Assembly (NCBI GenBank): GCA_905233215.1
Contig: CAJODC010000006.1
Location: 1-45,736 of the forward strand
DNA: 45,736 nucleotides
Source: an uncultured Synergistales bacterium
GTDB lineage: Bacteria > Synergistota > Synergistia > Synergistales > Aminobacteriaceae
Direction of reading: 5' to 3'
Shown: one piece after another, positions 241-34,841 of the stretch
How the letters are laid out: each line of letters starts with the position of its first letter
Position numbering within the stretch: position 1 is the stretch's first letter
The notes under the pieces: model-generated
What the model was told of the DNA's origin: nothing
The model's database searches: none
The model's input: the letters and a program-made list of their open reading frames with translations, nothing else
Position numbers and translations under genes: made by a program

Positions 241-1533
241 CTACAGGTAAACGCCTCTGAGTTCTACAATGTCGGAGACTCTTTTGATTGCGGCCATGTA
301 AGCCGAGCGTCTCATTGTTACCTTTTTGGCCTCTGCAAAATCCCAGACCTTGCAGAAATTTTCCTTCATGAGCTTGACGAGTCTCTGATTGTATTCGTCT
401 TCTGTCCACGTAAAGCCCTGCAAGTTCTGCGCCCACTCAAAATACGAACCGATGACACCGCCAGCGTTTGCGAGGAAGTCAGGCACTAAGATAACGCCCT
501 TGTCGTTGAGTATCTGTTCGGCTTCCGGCGTAGTGGGACTGTTCGCGCCCTCGAAAACGTACTTGGCCTTGAGCTTCTCTGCTGTCTCCCAGTTGAGAAC
601 GCCCTGAGCTGCACAGGGTAGGAACATGTCGCAGTCAACACCGATGATGTCATCTCCCGGAATTTTCTCGCAGCCTTCTTTCTCGAACCCGGCAAGTTTT
701 CTGCCTCTCTGAGCCGGGTTAGTGTTCATGTACTCGAACGCTTTGGAGATGTTGATGCCGTTGGGGTTGTAATACGCTCCTGTCGTGTCGCTGATTGCCA
801 CAATCTTAACGCCTGCTTCGTTGAGGATTTTCGCTGCATAGCTTCCGACGTTTCCGAAACCCTGAACGGCTGCCTTAATCTTCGTTGGGTCAAGTCCCTT
901 AATCCTCATCATCTCGAACGCGCATGTTGCGAGTCCTCGTCCTGTAGCCTCAGTTCTTCCCGGTGCGCCCCAGTAATCTATCGGTTTACCCGTGAGCATT
1001 GCCGGTTCAAAGTGTCCGAGCATCTTGCAGATTGTGTCCATTATCCAGACCATTTCCTGACCGCCGGTGTACATGTCAGGTGCTGGAACGTCAGACCATC
1101 TTCCGATTATGGGAGCGATTCTAGCTCCGAAAGTCCTCGACATTCTCTCCTTCTCGCCTCTTGACATGTGAGTAGGGTCGCAGCATATTCCGCCCTTGCC
1201 TCCGCCGTAAGGAATCCCGGCGAGCGAACACTTCCACGTCATCAGCATAGCGAGTCCTTCGCATTCTTGGCCGCTAACGTCAAGAGCGTAACGGATACCG
1301 CCCTTTGACGGCCCCAACGCTGTCGAGTGCTGTACCCTGAAGCCCTGAAACACTTTCACGCTTCCGTCATCAAGTGTAACTGGTACGGAGACATCGACTC
1401 TTCTTTCGGGGTAACTGAGTATCTGTATCAGTCCCTCGTTGAGGTGCATTTCATCTGCTGCTGCGTAGAAATCTCTCAACGCTGTGTTGAGTATGAGATT
1501 GTTTGACTTTCTTCTTCCGTTTTCATCTACCAT
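241..1533 (-). CDS. gdhA: NAD(P)-dependent glutamate dehydrogenase (Glu/Leu/Phe/Val family)
   Basis: This enzyme oxidatively deaminates glutamate to 2-oxoglutarate and ammonium, a central step in amino-acid fermenters. Visible motifs include the substrate-binding stretch GPSKGGIRY, the catalytic-lysine region PYGGGKGGI, the segment APDMYTGG, and the Rossmann region VQGFGNVGS. The 430-residue length is normal for hexameric bacterial enzymes. I chose the ATG at 1533 rather than an in-frame start 26 codons upstream because AAGGTG sits about 6 bases before it and the family N-terminus begins near here. The gene is monocistronic: its own promoter lies upstream and a terminator downstream. It ends in TAG, which matters for the symporter at 6833-8209. 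NAD versus NADP preference cannot be read from sequence with confidence. Confidence 0.95.
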   Translation of the reverse strand: MVDENGRRKSNNLILNTALRDFYAAADEMHLNEGLIQILSYPERRVDVSVPVTLDDGSVKVFQGFRVQHSTALGPSKGGIRYALDVSGQECEGLAMLMTWKCSLAGIPYGGGKGGICCDPTHMSRGEKERMSRTFGARIAPIIGRWSDVPAPDMYTGGQEMVWIMDTICKMLGHFEPAMLTGKPIDYWGAPGRTEATGRGLATCAFEMMRIKGLDPTKIKAAVQGFGNVGSYAAKILNEAGVKIVAISDTTGAYYNPNGINISKAFEYMNTNPAQRGRKLAGFEKEGCEKIPGDDIIGVDCDMFLPCAAQGVLNWETAEKLKAKYVFEGANSPTTPEAEQILNDKGVILVPDFLANAGGVIGSYFEWAQNLQGFTWTEDEYNQRLVKLMKENFCKVWDFAEAKKVTMRRSAYMAAIKRVSDIVELRGVYL

Positions 1534-1582
1534 CGTAACACCTTCAAAATATTCTGTATATTTCAAATTTTTACGGGCGGAA

Positions 1583-1611
1583 ATTTTACAGGCAGTTTTC
1601 GATTTTGTCAA
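1583..1611 (-). promoter_or_regulatory. Sigma-70-type promoter of gdhA
   Basis: On the minus strand a perfect -35 box TTGACA (1606-1611) is separated by 17 bases from a near-consensus -10 box TAAAAT (1583-1588). Transcription would start near 1576, giving a leader of about 43 bases before the ATG at 1533. This is one of the best promoter matches in the window. Confidence 0.75.
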
Positions 1612-2853: not shown

Positions 2854-5421
2854 ATGATACCTTCTGACATAAAAATCACTCCATGGCTTGAACAGTACAA
2901 GGCCTTCAAAGAAGAATACCCCGACGCAATTTTACTTTTCAGAATGGGCGACTTCTACGAAATGTTTTTTGACGATGCCAGAAATGCCGCCGACACTCTC
3001 AACATCGCATTGACCGCAAGAGACCCCGAAAAGAAAATCCCGATGGCCGGAATCCCTCATCACGCTCTAAATTCTTACTTGTCCCGCTTGATTCGAGCAG
3101 GCTACAGAGCCGCAATCTGTGAGCAAATCGGAGAGCCTAACCCGAAAGGAATCGTTGAACGCAGAGTCATCAGAGTCGTTACGCCCGGAACGTACCTTCC
3201 CGATGATCAGGCAGGCGAGTCGGCTCATCTCGCTTCAGTCTGGCCGATGAAGGGACGTATCGCTATGGCTCTGCTCTCGGTCAACACCGGACAGCTTGAG
3301 GCAGGGACATTGAGTCTTCGTGATGCTGAAGCTGTGATGTCGGCGTTCGCACCCGGCGAGGTACTTTACCCGTCAAACATAAAGACGCTCCCTGAATTTT
3401 TGCAGGGCTATAACTTACGAGCCGTTTCAGCCGAGACATTCAAACCCGAAAACGCTTCGAGAAGACTCATGTCGGCTCTTCACGCCTCAAGGCTTGAGGG
3501 CTTCGGGATTTCTGACAATGACCCATGCAGCGGATCAGCTTGGGCAGCTCTGGACTACCTGACCGCTACACAGTTCAGCTCGCTCGGTGATGTCCTGAAA
3601 CTTTCGCCACTAATCATCAAGGACAGAATGAGCCTCGATTCTTCAGCTCAGAGAAACCTCGAACTGATACCCGAAACATCAGGCGCAAGCGTTTCTCTCT
3701 TCTCATCAATCGACAAGTGCAGGACAAACGCTGGAAGACGTACCCTCAAGGATTGGCTGCTTCGTCCGTTGATGAACGTTAAAGAAATTTCGCGCCGTCA
3801 GGAATACATCAGGGTTCTTGTCTCATCGCCGGGCGAATGCGCACAGCTTCAGGACGCTCTTTCGGGTACACGAGATATTGAACGCTCATTGTCTCGTCTT
3901 GCACTAGGCACGGGCAACCCTATGGATTTGGGAGCGATAAGAGAGACATTGCGACTGATTCCGACGGTCAAGGCGATAAATTTTGGTGAACCTTTGAGGG
4001 CGTTACAGGATTCTTTGCCGAACACATCGAGGTTGAGCGAATACTTAGAGTCGGCACTTGAGGAGAATTTGCCGAGACAGCTCGGAATGTCGGCGGTGAT
4101 TCGTTCATCGTTTGCGCCGGAACTGTCAGAACTCCGGGACTTCTCGCAGAAGGGCGAACAATGGCTGTCGGAATATGTCGAACGTGAACGGATAGCGACA
4201 AGTACGCCGAAACTCAAGGCAGGTTACACGAACGCTTCAGGATATTATCTTGAGACCGGGAAAGCTGGACTGACGTTTCAGCCGGAGAATTTCAGACAGA
4301 CACAGACTCTCGTAAACTCTAAACGTTACGTTACGCAGGAGCTGAAGAATTTTGAGGCAAGAATGAAGAATGCTGAGGCTGAAATTTCACGCATCGAGTC
4401 TGAACTGTACAGGAAAGTTACCGCTCACGTTCTCGAAAACAGCAGAGACTTGCAGATGACCGCGAGACTTCTGGGAAAACTTGACTGCACAGCGTCATGT
4501 GCCGAGATTGCGAGAACAGGAAGTTATTGCTGTCCTGTCGTTGATGATTCTGACGTTATCGAAATCAAATCAGGCCGACACCCTGTAATTGAACGTGAAC
4601 TGAACGACTCAGTTTTTATCCCGAATGATGTCATCATCGACAGCAAGAGCCGTGTAATCATTCTGACAGGTCCCAACATGGCCGGTAAATCAACATGGCT
4701 GAGAATGACTGCACTAATTGCGATAATGTCTCAGGCTGGAATGTGGGTACCTGCCGAGTCTGCGAGAATAGGACTTGTCGACAGGGTGTTCACTCGAATC
4801 GGAGCAAGAGATGATTTAGTGAGAGGCTCAAGCACTTTCATGATTGAAATGTTGGAGACCGCTAATATTTTGAACAACGTAACGGACAGAAGTTTAATCA
4901 TTCTCGATGAAGTCGGCAGAGGTACGGCCACTTATGACGGAATGAGCATAGCATGGGCGGTGCTGGAATACTTGCAGGGAGCGTCAAGAGCGAGGGTGCT
5001 TTTTGCTACTCACTATCATGAGCTGACGTGCCTTGAGGAGAGACTGCCCGATGTTGTGAATTACTGCATGACGGTCTCAGAAGGCAAAGAGGGAATAATG
5101 TTCCTTCATCAGGTTGTGAGGGGCAAAGCTGGGAGGTCATACGGTCTTGAGGTTGCGAGGATTGCCGGACTTCCTGATGTTGTTCTGAGACGTGCGTTTG
5201 AGCTTCTGAATATTTTTGAGAATGACGGTATCGAAACGGCTGAAATACCTGCTCCGCTTCCACAGGTCGCATTGAAACGGCAAATAATGTTATTGTCGCC
5301 TGAGAATGACGCTATCGTTGAGGAACTTGCCGAGATTGACACGGACAACATAACGCCGAAAGAGGCATTGAAGATTCTTGACAGAATGAAAACGAAATGT
5401 CTTGAGGCTCGCGCTATGTGA
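2854..5421 (+). CDS. mutS: DNA mismatch repair protein MutS
   Basis: MutS recognises base mismatches and small loops and recruits MutL. The mismatch-reading motif GDFYEMF lies near residue 31. The C-terminal ATPase has Walker A GPNMAGKST (about residue 606), Walker B ILDEVGRGT (about 685) and the signature FATHYHEL. The length of 855 residues matches MutS1 proteins (E. coli 853). The gene starts 2 bases after the ttcA-family stop, so it is probably co-transcribed. mutL is not adjacent. Its stop overlaps by 8 bases the end of the convergent gene at 5414-5986. Confidence 0.97.
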   Translation: MIPSDIKITPWLEQYKAFKEEYPDAILLFRMGDFYEMFFDDARNAADTLNIALTARDPEKKIPMAGIPHHALNSYLSRLIRAGYRAAICEQIGEPNPKGIVERRVIRVVTPGTYLPDDQAGESAHLASVWPMKGRIAMALLSVNTGQLEAGTLSLRDAEAVMSAFAPGEVLYPSNIKTLPEFLQGYNLRAVSAETFKPENASRRLMSALHASRLEGFGISDNDPCSGSAWAALDYLTATQFSSLGDVLKLSPLIIKDRMSLDSSAQRNLELIPETSGASVSLFSSIDKCRTNAGRRTLKDWLLRPLMNVKEISRRQEYIRVLVSSPGECAQLQDALSGTRDIERSLSRLALGTGNPMDLGAIRETLRLIPTVKAINFGEPLRALQDSLPNTSRLSEYLESALEENLPRQLGMSAVIRSSFAPELSELRDFSQKGEQWLSEYVERERIATSTPKLKAGYTNASGYYLETGKAGLTFQPENFRQTQTLVNSKRYVTQELKNFEARMKNAEAEISRIESELYRKVTAHVLENSRDLQMTARLLGKLDCTASCAEIARTGSYCCPVVDDSDVIEIKSGRHPVIERELNDSVFIPNDVIIDSKSRVIILTGPNMAGKSTWLRMTALIAIMSQAGMWVPAESARIGLVDRVFTRIGARDDLVRGSSTFMIEMLETANILNNVTDRSLIILDEVGRGTATYDGMSIAWAVLEYLQGASRARVLFATHYHELTCLEERLPDVVNYCMTVSEGKEGIMFLHQVVRGKAGRSYGLEVARIAGLPDVVLRRAFELLNIFENDGIETAEIPAPLPQVALKRQIMLLSPENDAIVEELAEIDTDNITPKEALKILDRMKTKCLEARAM

Positions 5422-5986
5422 GAATTTCACGGACTTTTGACGCTATAGCCGGGAGGAGGTCAAATTCTGTTGACAGTTTCTCCGCTGTCATGGCCTTTGT
5501 CGAATCATTGACGGGAATATACGTTATGTCATTGTCGCCGTACTTCTTAGGGGCGTTTTTGACGACGAGAATCCAAGCGCAATGTCTCACGGCTTCATCA
5601 TGACTCATTTTTTTGACTGACTCGCGTTCTCTCAAAGTCTCTCTCACTTTCGAGACGACTCCCAAAATTCCGACAACAAAAGCAATCGGCCCAATCGCAC
5701 GGAAAACAGGCATGATATTTTTCACCGTCAGCAAAAGAGTCAAAACCGCTCCAATGATTCCAATCACCGCAAACGGCAAGCACTTCAACATAATTCTTTT
5801 TTTCGGGAAAAGAACAGCCTGCACCTCTCTTTCAGCGCAGGCCGTGCAGATTTCGTATTCCTTCGTTTCGCCAAGTGCCTGTACTATTCTTTCGCCGTCA
5901 AAATCCCTGATGTGCAGTGTGTGAACTTCTACCGCACGGAATCTCATTATGTCGGGCAAAAATTTGTTACAGACTAGGCATGACAT
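5414..5986 (-). CDS. Zinc-ribbon plus two-TM membrane protein of unknown function
   Basis: I do not recognise a named family. The predicted 190-residue protein starts MSCLVCNK and has a second CxxC (CTAC) about 45 residues later, so four cysteines could bind zinc or form a rubredoxin-like knuckle. Two hydrophobic segments follow (about residues 70-110: FAVIGIIGAVLTLLLTV and IGPIAFVVGILGVV). A charged cytoplasmic tail ends with DNDITYIPVNDST and a helical C-terminus. The ATG at 5986 was chosen because it makes the cysteine motif N-terminal and sits 2 bases after the stop of the solute-binding protein gene, suggesting translational coupling. It is the last gene of the malate operon and overlaps the mutS stop tail to tail. 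Confidence 0.7.
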   Translation of the reverse strand: MSCLVCNKFLPDIMRFRAVEVHTLHIRDFDGERIVQALGETKEYEICTACAEREVQAVLFPKKRIMLKCLPFAVIGIIGAVLTLLLTVKNIMPVFRAIGPIAFVVGILGVVSKVRETLRERESVKKMSHDEAVRHCAWILVVKNAPKKYGDNDITYIPVNDSTKAMTAEKLSTEFDLLPAIASKVREILT

Positions 5987-5988
5987 TG

Positions 5989-6822
5989 TTAATCTCTGGT
6001 GAAGTGCTTCAAGTGCATGAACATATCCCAATCGTAATACGGTACTGACAGCAATACACCTGAAGGCGCGTCAGGCTGTTTTTCTACGTTGTCCCACACC
6101 TGATACCAGAATACAGCGTCAGCTCGTCCCGACATTAACGCGCTTGTTCTCGCTCCTGATTCGATGTTGAGGAGCTTGATGTTCACGCCGAGACGTTTGC
6201 CGATTTCAGCGAGTACGGCCGTGTTGAAACCGACAGGAGTCCCGTCAGGCGCGATGAGGTCAAGCGGAGGAAGATCGCCCGTAACGGCAACTGTGATTGT
6301 CTCAGCTCCGGGAAATTCCGTGAACGCTTCGGCATGAGGAAGAGTTTTTCCGGGAACGCCGATGTATTTCGACTTGAGGATTCTCATTTTGTTATCGGCC
6401 GTCATTGATGCTAAAGCACCGTTCACCATGCTGCATAGCTTCTGGCCTTCCTCGTCATTCCTGAAACCCATAGCTATATGTGTCGTCCTTGAATGAAGCG
6501 CACAGCATATCTCAGACGAAGGACTGGTATTGGCTATGTATTCGGCGACAGGTTCAGGCAGTGCCGCTTCGTCAATCTTCCCTGAATGCAGAGCCATCAT
6601 CATAGCAGTAAGCGAGTCAAAATACGTGAATGAGTCATCAAAACTGTGAGGAGTGTTCATTATCTTCCAGCCAAAGAAGTTTATCTCCTGAGACTTAATG
6701 AACTCAGCGAACTCTTCGGGAGTCATGTTCTGCTGTGTCAGCGATCCCATTTTCAGCCCTGCACCGAACGCAGAAGCGGCAATGAGTCCCACAATCAGCA
6801 GTGAAAGCAATAATTTCTTCAT
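5989..6822 (-). CDS. Exported solute-binding (SBP_bac_3-like) protein, atypical domain order
   Basis: The N-terminus is a clear signal peptide (MKKLLLSLLIVGLIAASAFG, probably cleaved near AFG-AG). The last 100 residues look like the first half of an amino-acid-type binding protein: TGDLPPLDLIAPDGTPVGFN and GARTSALMSGRADAVFW. Residues 50-170 look like the second half of another such domain (SLTAMMMALHSGKIDEA, then a decoy-like AMGFRNDEEG). The protein therefore reads as two partial binding domains in tandem or a permuted domain. GGGGTG precedes the ATG. It lies 10 bases after the symporter gene, yet no ABC permease or ATPase is nearby. It may deliver substrate to another transporter or act as a sensor; function is unassigned. 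Confidence 0.75.
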   Translation of the reverse strand: MKKLLLSLLIVGLIAASAFGAGLKMGSLTQQNMTPEEFAEFIKSQEINFFGWKIMNTPHSFDDSFTYFDSLTAMMMALHSGKIDEAALPEPVAEYIANTSPSSEICCALHSRTTHIAMGFRNDEEGQKLCSMVNGALASMTADNKMRILKSKYIGVPGKTLPHAEAFTEFPGAETITVAVTGDLPPLDLIAPDGTPVGFNTAVLAEIGKRLGVNIKLLNIESGARTSALMSGRADAVFWYQVWDNVEKQPDAPSGVLLSVPYYDWDMFMHLKHFTRD

Positions 6823-6832
6823 GCTCTCACCC

Positions 6833-8209
6833 CTATAACATACTGCCGAGTGTTGACAGCATCAGAGAGCCTATGATGAGGATTATCGCACCGCCTAGAC
6901 GTGATGAGATCTGAGCGAAGGGCATAAGCTCCATTCTGTGAGCAGCCGACAAAACCGCAACGTCTCCAGTACCGCCCATGTTAGACATGCAGAGCCCGGC
7001 AGTGATTCCGGCCTCAACAGGATAGAAGCCTACAATCGCTCCGACAAGTGCAGCACCGATGAACGCTCCGATGCACGCAAGGAAGCACATCAAAAGATAC
7101 ATCATTGAGAAGCTGCTGATTACGACATCAAGACTCAAGTAGCAGAGACCGATACCGACCATCAGCATTGATGTGAGATTCTTCATGACGAACTGGAACC
7201 ACTGGTAACAGCATACCTCGATGAACTCAGGGAGAATGCCGAAGACTTTGCACAGTGCCACAGAAATAATCATCCATGCGTAGGCGTGAATGTTCACGGC
7301 AGGCACGAGCTTGATCCATATTCCGGCGATGATGTAGCCCCATGCGAAGAATGTTGTAGCGGCAAGAAGACCGATTCCGAGATTCGTAACGGTAACGTGG
7401 TCACGCTTCTTCTGCATTTCGGGCGAAATCTCGAACTCCGCAGGGTCATCATTCGCTCCAGTCTTCATCAATGAGCCTTGACCGTTGAAGAATTTTCCTG
7501 CCAGAACTTTCACGAGTATACCGGCAAGAACGATTGACGTTGCGTTACCGATAGCGACCGCAGGATTCATGATTGAGATAGCTTCCTCTGCTGTCATAGT
7601 TCCTGATGACTCGAAAATTTTGCTGAGAGGCACTGCGCCTGCTCCCATTCCACCGCCCATGATGGGAAGAGCGATGAGAAGCAAAGCCTTGACGACACCG
7701 AATCCGCTGAAGTGTCCTGCTAATGCGACAAGACCGAACGAAACAATCAACGCTCCGAAAATCGCCGGGAAGTAACGAGCCGCCGCCTTCACGAGGAGCT
7801 TTCTATTCATTCCGAGAATTGAGCCTGTGATTAACGCTGCAATGTAAAAGTCAAGGAATGCTCCGGCAGGTTTGAAGAACGTGTCAATATTCTGCATCAG
7901 AATAGCAGTGAAACCGCCCTTGCCGATTAAGCCGGAAATCATGTCGAACGCGCCAAAGAAATTCATGTAGCGCAAAAATCCCATTCCGAAAATTATTACG
8001 ACAGGCCCGCCCCCCAAGAACGTATTAACGATAGGGAGATTGTCGCCGATTTCCTAAAGTATCGCACCGCAGACAATCATGAACGCGAAACAACCGGCCA
8101 TACCGGCAGGAAGCACTCCGAGCATTGCAGCAAGAAGAACGACAACAGCAAAGGACGCGAAATATTTTGGCGGTAAGTTGAAAATCTTGAAGCCTCTGTA
8201 TTCTTCCAT
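6833..8209 (-). pseudogene. 2-hydroxycarboxylate (citrate/malate:Na+) symporter interrupted by an in-frame TAG
   Basis: The 2HCT family (CitS, MaeP, MleP) exchanges or co-transports malate, citrate or lactate across the inner membrane. Family hallmarks are present: the first GGxG loop (MGGGMGAGAVPLS) and the second (MSNMGGTGDVAVLSAA), then LMPFAQISSRLGGA and many hydrophobic helices. Reading from ATG 8209, the frame encodes MEEYRGFKIFNLPPKYFA and so on for 51 codons, meets TAG at 8054-8056, then continues in the same frame with EIGDNLPIVNTFLGGGPVV, which is normal family sequence. A full product would be 458 residues, the usual size. Restart inside (TTG at 8017) has no ribosome site and would lose the first helix. 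The gene's own stop is also TAG. It lies 3 bases after the malic enzyme gene. A nonsense mutation, suppression, or a base error are the options. Confidence 0.85.
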
Positions 8210-8212
8210 GAC

Positions 8213-9388
8213 TTATAACCTCGCTACACCTGATTTTCTTGCCGCTTCAGCGACTGCCTTTGACACTGCCGGTCCGACTCTGGGGTCAAACGCTGCCGGA
8301 ATGATGTAATCAGGGCCGAGCTTGTCGGGTTCGACCAAATCCGCAAGAGCGTGAGACGCGGCAACCTTCATGGCCTCGTTGATGTCGCTTGCTCTTACGT
8401 CAAAAGTGCCTCTGAAGATTCCCGGGAATGCGAGAACGTTGTTGATCTGATTCGGGAAGTCGCTTCTTCCTGTTGAGATTACAGCCGCTCCAGCCGCTTT
8501 AGCGTCATCGGGGAAAATTTCGGGCGTAGGGTTGGCGCAGGCGAAGATTATCGGGTCTTTTGCCATTGAGCGCACCATGTCCTGAGTCACGCTGTTGGGT
8601 GCTGACACTCCGATGAAGACATCTGCGCCCTTCATAGCATCGGAGAGCGAGCCTTTGAGTCCTTCGGGGTTAGTGATCTCGGCCATCTCGGACTTGATCC
8701 AGTTCATGCCCTTCTCTCGTCCTTTGTAGACGATGCCTGTGCGGTCGCAGAGTGTTACGTTCTTGAGTCCTGCTGAGATGAGTAATTTTGTGATTGCTAT
8801 TGCCGCTGCTCCTGCTCCATTGACGGCGACTTTGATGTTTCCGATGTCTTTGCCGACAACTTTGAGGGCATTGATGAGTCCGGCGAGAGTGATTACGGCT
8901 GTTCCGTGCTGGTCATCGTGGAATATCGGAATGTCGCAGCGTTCTTTCAGTTTGCGCTCAATCTCGAAACATCTCGGTGCTGCAATGTCCTCAAGGTTAA
9001 TTCCGCCGAAAGAGCCTGAAATGTTGTAGACGGTCTCAACGAATGCGTCAACATCTTGTGTCTTGACACAGAGAGGGAAAGCGTCAACGCCTCCGAACGC
9101 CTTGAACAGAACGCATTTTCCCTCCATGACGGGCATACCTGCTTCAGGGCCGATGTCGCCGAGTCCGAGTACCGCGCTTCCGTCAGTAACGACGAGACAG
9201 AGATTATGACGGCGTGTGAGGTCATAACTCTTGCTGACGTCCTTCTGAATCGCAAGGCAGGGTTCGGCTACACCGGGAGTGTAAGCGAGCGACAAGTCAT
9301 CTTTCGTTGCTACCGGGACTGTAGCAATGACTTCGATTTTCCCCTTCCACTGTTCGTGGAGCCTGAGTGATTCCTTTGCGTAATCCAT
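8213..9388 (-). CDS. Malic enzyme (oxaloacetate-decarboxylating malate dehydrogenase)
   Basis: This enzyme oxidatively decarboxylates malate to pyruvate and CO2 with NAD(P)+. The 391-residue length fits the short bacterial type without a phosphotransacetylase domain. Motifs seen: [10 protein letters not shown] at the N-terminus, the nucleotide and catalytic segment [24 protein letters not shown], the Rossmann NGAGAAAIA, and [10 protein letters not shown] strong AGGAGG lies 10 bases before the ATG. It is first in an operon with the 2HCT symporter and the solute-binding protein, which indicates malate (or citrate-derived malate) use. Cofactor preference is not decided by what I can see. Confidence 0.93.
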
Positions 9389-11440: not shown

Positions 11441-12462
11441 CTAGCCGTTATGAATTATCCATTCGGCAGCTCGTTTAGCCTCGTTGAAGCCTAAGCCGTG
11501 TTTTTGTTCGTAAGCCTCAAGGAATTTCGGAAAGTACAAATCATTGCCGAAGTCCTCAATCAATCCCCTTTCGGAAAATTCTTTGAACATGTCATCAAAT
11601 CTTCTTGCCCCGTAGCCAAGCATGTGCTTAATCTTTCCCGTAGTTCTCGGCAAACGTATCAATCCCACCTTGAACCCGGCTGTTACCGCCTCTGAGACCA
11701 TCGACACAGAATCTTCAGTAACAAGAACATGAGTAGCCGCTCCGAGTATGGCCGTGATTGAGTTCTGATTAGGCGTACGTGAATAAAGGAACATGTATTC
11801 AAGGTTAGGGCTTCCTGAGAAAATTTCTTCGACAGTCTCTTCAACGCTCTGTCCTGTCCGTCTTGATGTAGTGATGAGAAATTTAGCGTCCCTGATTTCC
11901 CTCAGAGGCGTTAAAACATTTCTTGCCCATCGTGAATTTATCCTGTAATTAGCATCGCTTCCGCCGATTAACAGAGCGATAATTTTCCGGCCTTCAAGAT
12001 TTCGTCCGTGGGCGCACCCAGAGTCGTTATGACGTTTCCTGCTTTCAGATTGGGCTTGTCGTGTTCGGGAACTATGGCGTAATTGAACGGTCTTGTTCCT
12101 AACACTGAAGGGGTCATTATGACGGCGCACTTGTTGTGTGTTGCTTTAGCGAGTGCCAGACAAAAAGGAGCTGCCCTGCTTCCTGCCGAGATGAAAAGCG
12201 TTGAGCCTTCCTCGTACTTGTTGTAACGAACGCCGAATGACTTGAGCCATTCACGTGAAAACGCTCCGCCGTGAGTTTCGAGACCTCTCACAAAAAGTTT
12301 CATCTTCAATATCCTGTCGAATATCGACATTTCTGGAATGTTGACAGTCTGAGCAATCTCTGTTCCTTCAAGACGTTCGAGCCACTCTGCGACTCCCTGC
12401 GACTGATGGAGATGTCCCCTTATACCGTCACTTATTATCACTGCCTTTGCGAATTTCGGCAT
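11441..12462 (-). pseudogene. ELM1-family (mitochondrial-fission ELM1-like) protein, frameshifted
   Basis: ELM1-like proteins are GT-B-type proteins found in Gram-negative envelope loci, thought to act in surface sugar assembly. Here the two halves are in different frames. The first (ATG 12462) reads ISDGIRGHLHQSQGVAEWL, LFISAGSRAAPFC and ends early after LGAPTDEILKAGKLSLC. The second continues normally as GRKIIALLIGGSDANY, then VTEDSVSMVSEAVTAG and a C-terminal EWIIHNG. The break is between about 11978 and 12000 and needs one inserted base (or a -1 shift) to restore the frame; joined, the product would be about 340 residues. A homopolymer AAAA is at the site, so a base error is possible. The start overlaps the kdsB end by 35 bases, with AGAGAG as ribosome site. 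Confidence 0.75.
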
Positions 12463-34433: not shown

Positions 34434-34786
34434 TTACCTTCCGAAAATCTCTGAATGAGTGCATACCTTCACGAAAGTTATGAGTTCGATTTTTGAGCCT
34501 TTGGGTTTAATCTCGTACACAAGTGGCATTCCCTGTATTTACTGAGATTGCCTGTCAGTTGATGGTCTTTCCATTCAAGGGGCATAGGTTCATTGTTGAC
34601 AGCAAGGAGAGTCATTGCTTCCTTGACTCTGTTCATGTCGCACTTGCCGGAGGCTTCGAGCATGTCTTCACTTAGAGGCTTTTCATAGAAATCTCTCATC
34701 ATTCTGACTCTGATTTTGCGAACATCTTTCCTTGCTTTCTGAGTATGTTTTCTTGCCTTGTGAATATTATTCCTGACTCTCTGCAT
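34434..34786 (-). pseudogene. YafQ/RelE-type toxin remnant, frameshifted
   Basis: YafQ toxins cleave mRNA on the ribosome. The first frame reads a basic N-terminal stretch, then SEDMLEASGKCDMNRVKEAM, PLEWKDHQLTGNLSKY and RECHL, matching YafQ. It then reads LCTRLNPKAQKSNS and stops at 34478. A second frame two bases over continues LVYEIKPKGSKIELITFV and THSEIFGR, the normal YafQ C-terminus, ending TAA at 34434. About 5-6 residues (IEPDWL-like) are missing at the junction, so an out-of-frame deletion is likely. Catalytic residues in the C-terminal part cannot be made in one frame. No antitoxin is adjacent. ATG 34786 after GAGGTG is the better start. Confidence 0.7.
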
Positions 34787-34841
34787 GTCTTTCACCTCAT
34801 GATATTTTTTTCGCGTATGTCAAATATTTTAGCATAGGCAT

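Follow-up and report, generated by a model that had tools for sequence, protein, structure and literature searches.

The 2HCT family (PF03390) includes the Na+/citrate symporter CitS, for which structures have been solved (PDB 5a1s and 5x9r). A GGxG hairpin motif is named as a feature of 2HCT carriers in PMC5451387, where transmembrane helices 1-4 of CitS are described as part of the dimerization domain. Malic enzyme genes next to putative malate transporter genes are described for the maePE malate operons of Lactobacillales (PMC5457438), and in Lactococcus lactis bv. diacetylactis a maeP-like pseudogene is reported to follow citM within the cit locus (PMC10798043). The titles listed by the literature searches included no report on the 2HCT gene in the genus considered here.

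The DNA analysed in this study (the window, 45,736 nucleotides) is contig C6 of the genome G000 of an uncultured Synergistales bacterium, a draft of 1.74 Mb in 80 contigs with a completeness of 97.3%. Among named entries, its closest relatives are assemblies from metagenomes that bear the names Synergistaceae, Synergistales or Fretibacterium sp.; many of them derive from the gut of goat or red deer. A short ORF at 34478-34795 of the window matches YafQ, a family of toxins from toxin-antitoxin pairs. On the minus strand, the genes follow each other in the order malic enzyme, 2HCT carrier, SBP-like gene and orfX, with the following features:

8213-9388, minus strand: intact malic enzyme gene, immediately 5' of the 2HCT gene (PF00390/PF03949; 6 bp gap between the matched stretches)
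6833-8209, minus strand: gene of a 2HCT-family carrier, 458 codons including read-through of the stop (PF03390 on both sides of the stop; best solved relatives are the CitS structures)
8057-8209, minus strand: short ORF 5' of the stop, 51 amino acids, comprising helix 1 and most of helix 2 (an intact relative was modelled with helices at 14-30 and 37-57)
8054-8056, minus strand: in-frame TAG at codon 52, which is CAG (Gln) in relatives (translation and codon alignment)
6833-8017, minus strand: longest ORF 3' of the stop, TTG start, 394 amino acids, without the first two helices (ORFs, profile and the relative's model)
5989-6822, minus strand: intact downstream gene of the operon, encoding a protein whose C-terminal part matches SBP_bac_3 (profile match and relatives)
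5414-6031, minus strand: orfX, a conserved 2HCT-linked protein, start probably over-extended by about 15 codons (relatives; no Pfam hit)

The pairing of malic enzyme and a transporter in one operon, as assumed in the earlier note, is supported, and the arrangement is conserved in relatives. In the SBP-like protein, an N-terminal part of about 170 residues lies outside the SBP_bac_3 match, and its gene was not found or was a remnant in several relatives. Scans against Pfam and NCBIfam gave no name for orfX, which encodes two Cys-x-x-Cys pairs and hydrophobic stretches and is located 3' of the 2HCT gene in assemblies of Synergistaceae, Oscillospiraceae, Treponema and Lachnospiraceae (window and L060-L093). 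One genome, G030, carries the region of malic enzyme, 2HCT, SBP, orfX and AEC permease genes twice, with equal match scores (L060 on contig C2, L061 on contig C10).

Translation of the 2HCT frame (8209 to 6833, minus strand, start ATG at 8209) yielded 458 residues with a single stop at position 52 (TAG, 8056-8054) and a terminal TAG. The part after the stop matched PF03390 with 375.2 bits (cut-off 26.2); the 51 amino acids before it scored below this cut-off (21.9 bits), in register with profile positions 1-43. The alignment to relatives is unbroken over residues 1-458, and two GGxG hairpin motifs are present (GGMG at 186, GGTG at 412). This long conserved frame with one stop is a real observation and not a product of chance, and the description in the earlier note of a 2HCT match on either side of a single TAG without a frame change holds. 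The 2HCT gene scored below the NCBIfam cut-offs for CitS and therefore no substrate was assigned.

At codon 52, each of the 25 other copies that were aligned by codon carries CAG (Gln), which answers the question of the earlier note as to the residue occupying this codon in homologues and shows the disabling change at a site where the orthologues are intact. Twenty-two of these copies came from the genus search and three from a search for related loci (one each from Fretibacterium sp., Oscillospiraceae and Treponema). Judged from these codons, the stop is one C-to-T step away from the glutamine codon. More distant homologues from outside the genus have N, G, A, D, S, F or Y at this site; therefore, the position tolerates change, and a special amino acid would not be expected there.

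The model of the intact relative has a mean pLDDT of 73 and starts with the helices 14-30 and 37-57. Codon 52 falls inside the helix 37-57, so that no uninterrupted frame with all helices is present, and the product would be cut off within this second helix of the model. A restart at codon 65 (TTG) or 76 (ATG) loses both first helices. The remainder of the gene showed neither a second lesion nor relaxed selection: the median pairwise dN/dS was 0.051 between the window copy and intact copies (15 pairs) and 0.064 among intact copies (82 pairs), pairs with a dS of 1.6 or more being excluded. The low ratio of about 0.05 fits a very young allele, but it is equally expected for a gene that still works or for a wrong base. 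Strong selection acted on the gene until very recently or does so still, or else the base is wrong.

With the 2HCT protein of an intact relative as query, 43 genomes of the genus were searched, and matches were obtained in 27 of them. In 26 of these the match is an orthologue of at least 72% identity, in the remaining one only a distant fragment. Five of the 26 genomes with an orthologue contained an in-frame stop in this gene, each at a different place:

G000 (window genome): codon 52
G008: codon 27
G064: codon 16
G018: codon 100
G025: codon 290, together with a frame break

Only one stop occurred in 162 copies of control genes (Fisher p 2e-4 against 5/26). Each copy stands for one gene matched in one genome (malic enzyme 38, Ddl 39, MutS 43, gdhA 42); fragments were counted, too, as was one distant, Ddl-like match in G036. 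The sole stop was a TAG in a contig-end fragment of MutS (G061), and no core stop was found in any control gene of the five genomes with a 2HCT stop. When the AEC permease and an ELM1-like gene were added, the control amounted to 2 stops in 236 copies, including a contig-end AEC fragment with one TAG (G007) and excluding a small AEC-like remnant with one TGA (G018). Frame breaks in controls (MutS in G062 and G027, gdhA in G033, malic enzyme in G027) were not scored as stops. As a class, 2HCT lesions exceed this background.

Some stop flags were discounted. The DNA of gdhA at 24 places gave stops in 12 alignments, all within the first 25 residues of an over-extended start and hence in DNA before the gene. 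The gdhA frame of the window (241-1611) itself begins at an over-extended TTG, and relatives have stops in these first 25 residues. The flags in distant 2HCT homologues (G047, G055, G004:C3) are absent inside the tblastn alignments.

The excess in the genus is carried by 2HCT copies located away from malic enzyme, four of seven of which contain a stop. Among the 18 copies adjacent to malic enzyme, the stop of the window is the only one (p 0.20 against the controls). Since the excess is concentrated in the non-adjacent copies and the adjacent ones do not differ from the controls, the genus pattern shows that the 2HCT gene is dispensable and does not alone prove the base in the window.

A second carrier candidate is a permease of the AEC family. 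The 2HCT gene is absent from 16 of the 43 genomes. Since 12 of these 16 keep malic enzyme, having the enzyme but no 2HCT is a common state in the genus. In eight genomes without 2HCT, an AEC permease gene lies 6-156 bp from the malic enzyme gene; four of these eight permeases were scanned and all four matched PF03547. A permease of 313 amino acids, of the AEC family where scanned, adjoins malic enzyme without 2HCT at L212, L213, L215, L219, L220 and L222. Both carriers occur in 25 genomes, and in 15 of these the two genes are at most 5 kb apart. The window genome possesses an intact AEC gene (G000:C35:3458-4396, 77% identity to the query), which adjoins the citrate lyase genes citD and citE and has a gene for a TRAP-type binding protein nearby.

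An AEC orthologue is kept in all five genomes with a 2HCT stop. This retention is permissive and not discriminating, because the AEC gene is kept in 25 of the 26 genomes that have a 2HCT orthologue. Stops were found in 5 of 10 genomes with unlinked and in none of 15 with linked carrier genes (p 0.005), a post hoc comparison affected by contig breaks and therefore given no weight. As one of its readings, the earlier note had proposed disabled uptake and the loss of the strain's transporter. Since the genome retains an intact AEC permease, a putative malate/citrate carrier whose gene directly adjoins that of malic enzyme in the eight genomes without 2HCT, neither suggestion is supported.

The codon-52 stop is probably a real and recent nonsense allele of the 2HCT gene, which the second carrier would make tolerable. 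A single C-to-T change would have turned the Gln-52 codon CAG into TAG in the only 2HCT carrier gene of the genome. If the base is real, translation would stop within the second transmembrane helix, at a length of 51 residues, and most likely neither a working carrier nor any functional protein would result. The allele would be young, because the rest of the gene is free of a second lesion and of signs of relaxed selection. The loss would be tolerable because 2HCT is one of two candidate carriers in the malate/citrate module of the genus, and the other, the AEC permease, is intact elsewhere in the genome and may carry the same substrate.

That UAG is reassigned to glutamine throughout the genome agrees with the glutamine codon of the relatives, but is hardly conceivable: the RF1 gene prfA is present (537.3 bits; cut-off 423.25), the 2HCT gene itself is terminated by TAG, and none of the 38 tRNA genes above the cut-off, all of which were given anticodons, has a CUA anticodon in this genome of about 97% completeness. 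A stop-neighbour codon-score scan of the window genes listed no other internal TAG, but it is weak and missed the known codon-52 stop as well. Three weaker tRNA hits were a tmRNA, a contig-edge tRNA fragment reading CUU, and one under the cut-off without an ARAGORN call. With regard to pyrrolysine, the tRNA search gave no CUA anticodon, and homologues outside the genus vary at this site. The view of the earlier note that a reassigned code is unlikely thus stands, and the amber suppressor tRNA it proposed did not appear in the search; about 3% of the genome is missing, so that such a suppressor remains conceivable, though improbable. UAG recoding was also rejected on account of the stops at different codons in different genomes. 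More generally, it seems rather improbable that the stop is tolerated in the sense that an unseen amber suppressor, natural read-through or a later restart still yields a working carrier. The unrelaxed remainder of the gene would fit this, as would the location of three of the five genus stops within the first 52 codons. RF1 and the tRNA result speak against it, as do the differing codons, which leave no conserved recoding site, and the loss of the first two helices upon restart at codon 65 or 76, TM1-4 of CitS being assigned to the dimerization domain (PMC5451387).

An error of consensus or assembly, or the base of a minority strain, in a draft that is seemingly metagenome-assembled would mean that the gene of the population is intact. 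False pseudogenes are known to arise from errors of assembly (PMC11017572), the window belongs to a draft of 80 contigs, and its stop stands alone among the malic-enzyme-adjacent copies. Moreover, a second lesion lies 4 kb away in the ELM1-like gene (PF06258; 11441-12462, minus strand), which is split into two frames with the break near 12008. This gene has a 49-bp deletion in comparison to relatives, in most of which the frame is open at about 356 codons, and this frame-breaking deletion may point to assembly trouble on the contig. On the other hand, the control rate, calculated from partly approximate lengths, is about one stop in 77,000 codons and leads to an expectation of about 0.006 stops in the 2HCT gene, and the genome shows a completeness of 97% and a contamination of 0.26%. 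An error of this kind is considered unlikely, if less so than a tolerated stop, and the nonsense allele is retained as the preferred explanation.

The stop at codon 52 is an ordinary event of a known kind and, taken alone, adds one more nonsense allele of a transporter; the carrier exchange around malic enzyme is more interesting and the wider pattern more useful. It is conceivable, though tentative, that the 2HCT gene of the malic-enzyme module is in continual turnover in this genus by recurrent nonsense alleles and losses of the whole gene, while malic enzyme stays, because the AEC permease can replace the carrier beside it; the window would then represent the first step of a carrier swap. 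Two unrelated carrier families swap places beside the same enzyme. Genomes that possess both carriers, only one of them or none exist side by side in the genus, and such natural pairs could be used to test which carrier matters for the use of malate or citrate in the gut. One broken carrier gene should not be read as lost uptake.

In comparison to CitS, the region 3' of the stop is homologous throughout (E 1.8e-65), and both GGxG hairpin motifs (residues 186 and 412 of the window gene) are shared; the codon-52 stop and the scores below the NCBIfam CitS cut-offs are not. With the maePE operons as described in PMC5457438, the locus shares a malic enzyme gene adjoining the gene of a putative malate transporter, whereas its gene order is reversed, the SBP-like gene and orfX are additional, and the carrier is broken. 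The cit locus of L. lactis, as presented in PMC10798043, likewise has an oxaloacetate-decarboxylase gene (mae/citM) followed immediately by the pseudogene of a carrier, with another carrier serving the pathway. There, a maeP-like gene is interrupted by several frameshifts, whereas in the window a 2HCT gene is interrupted by one nonsense codon and the AEC permease is the candidate for the remaining carrier.
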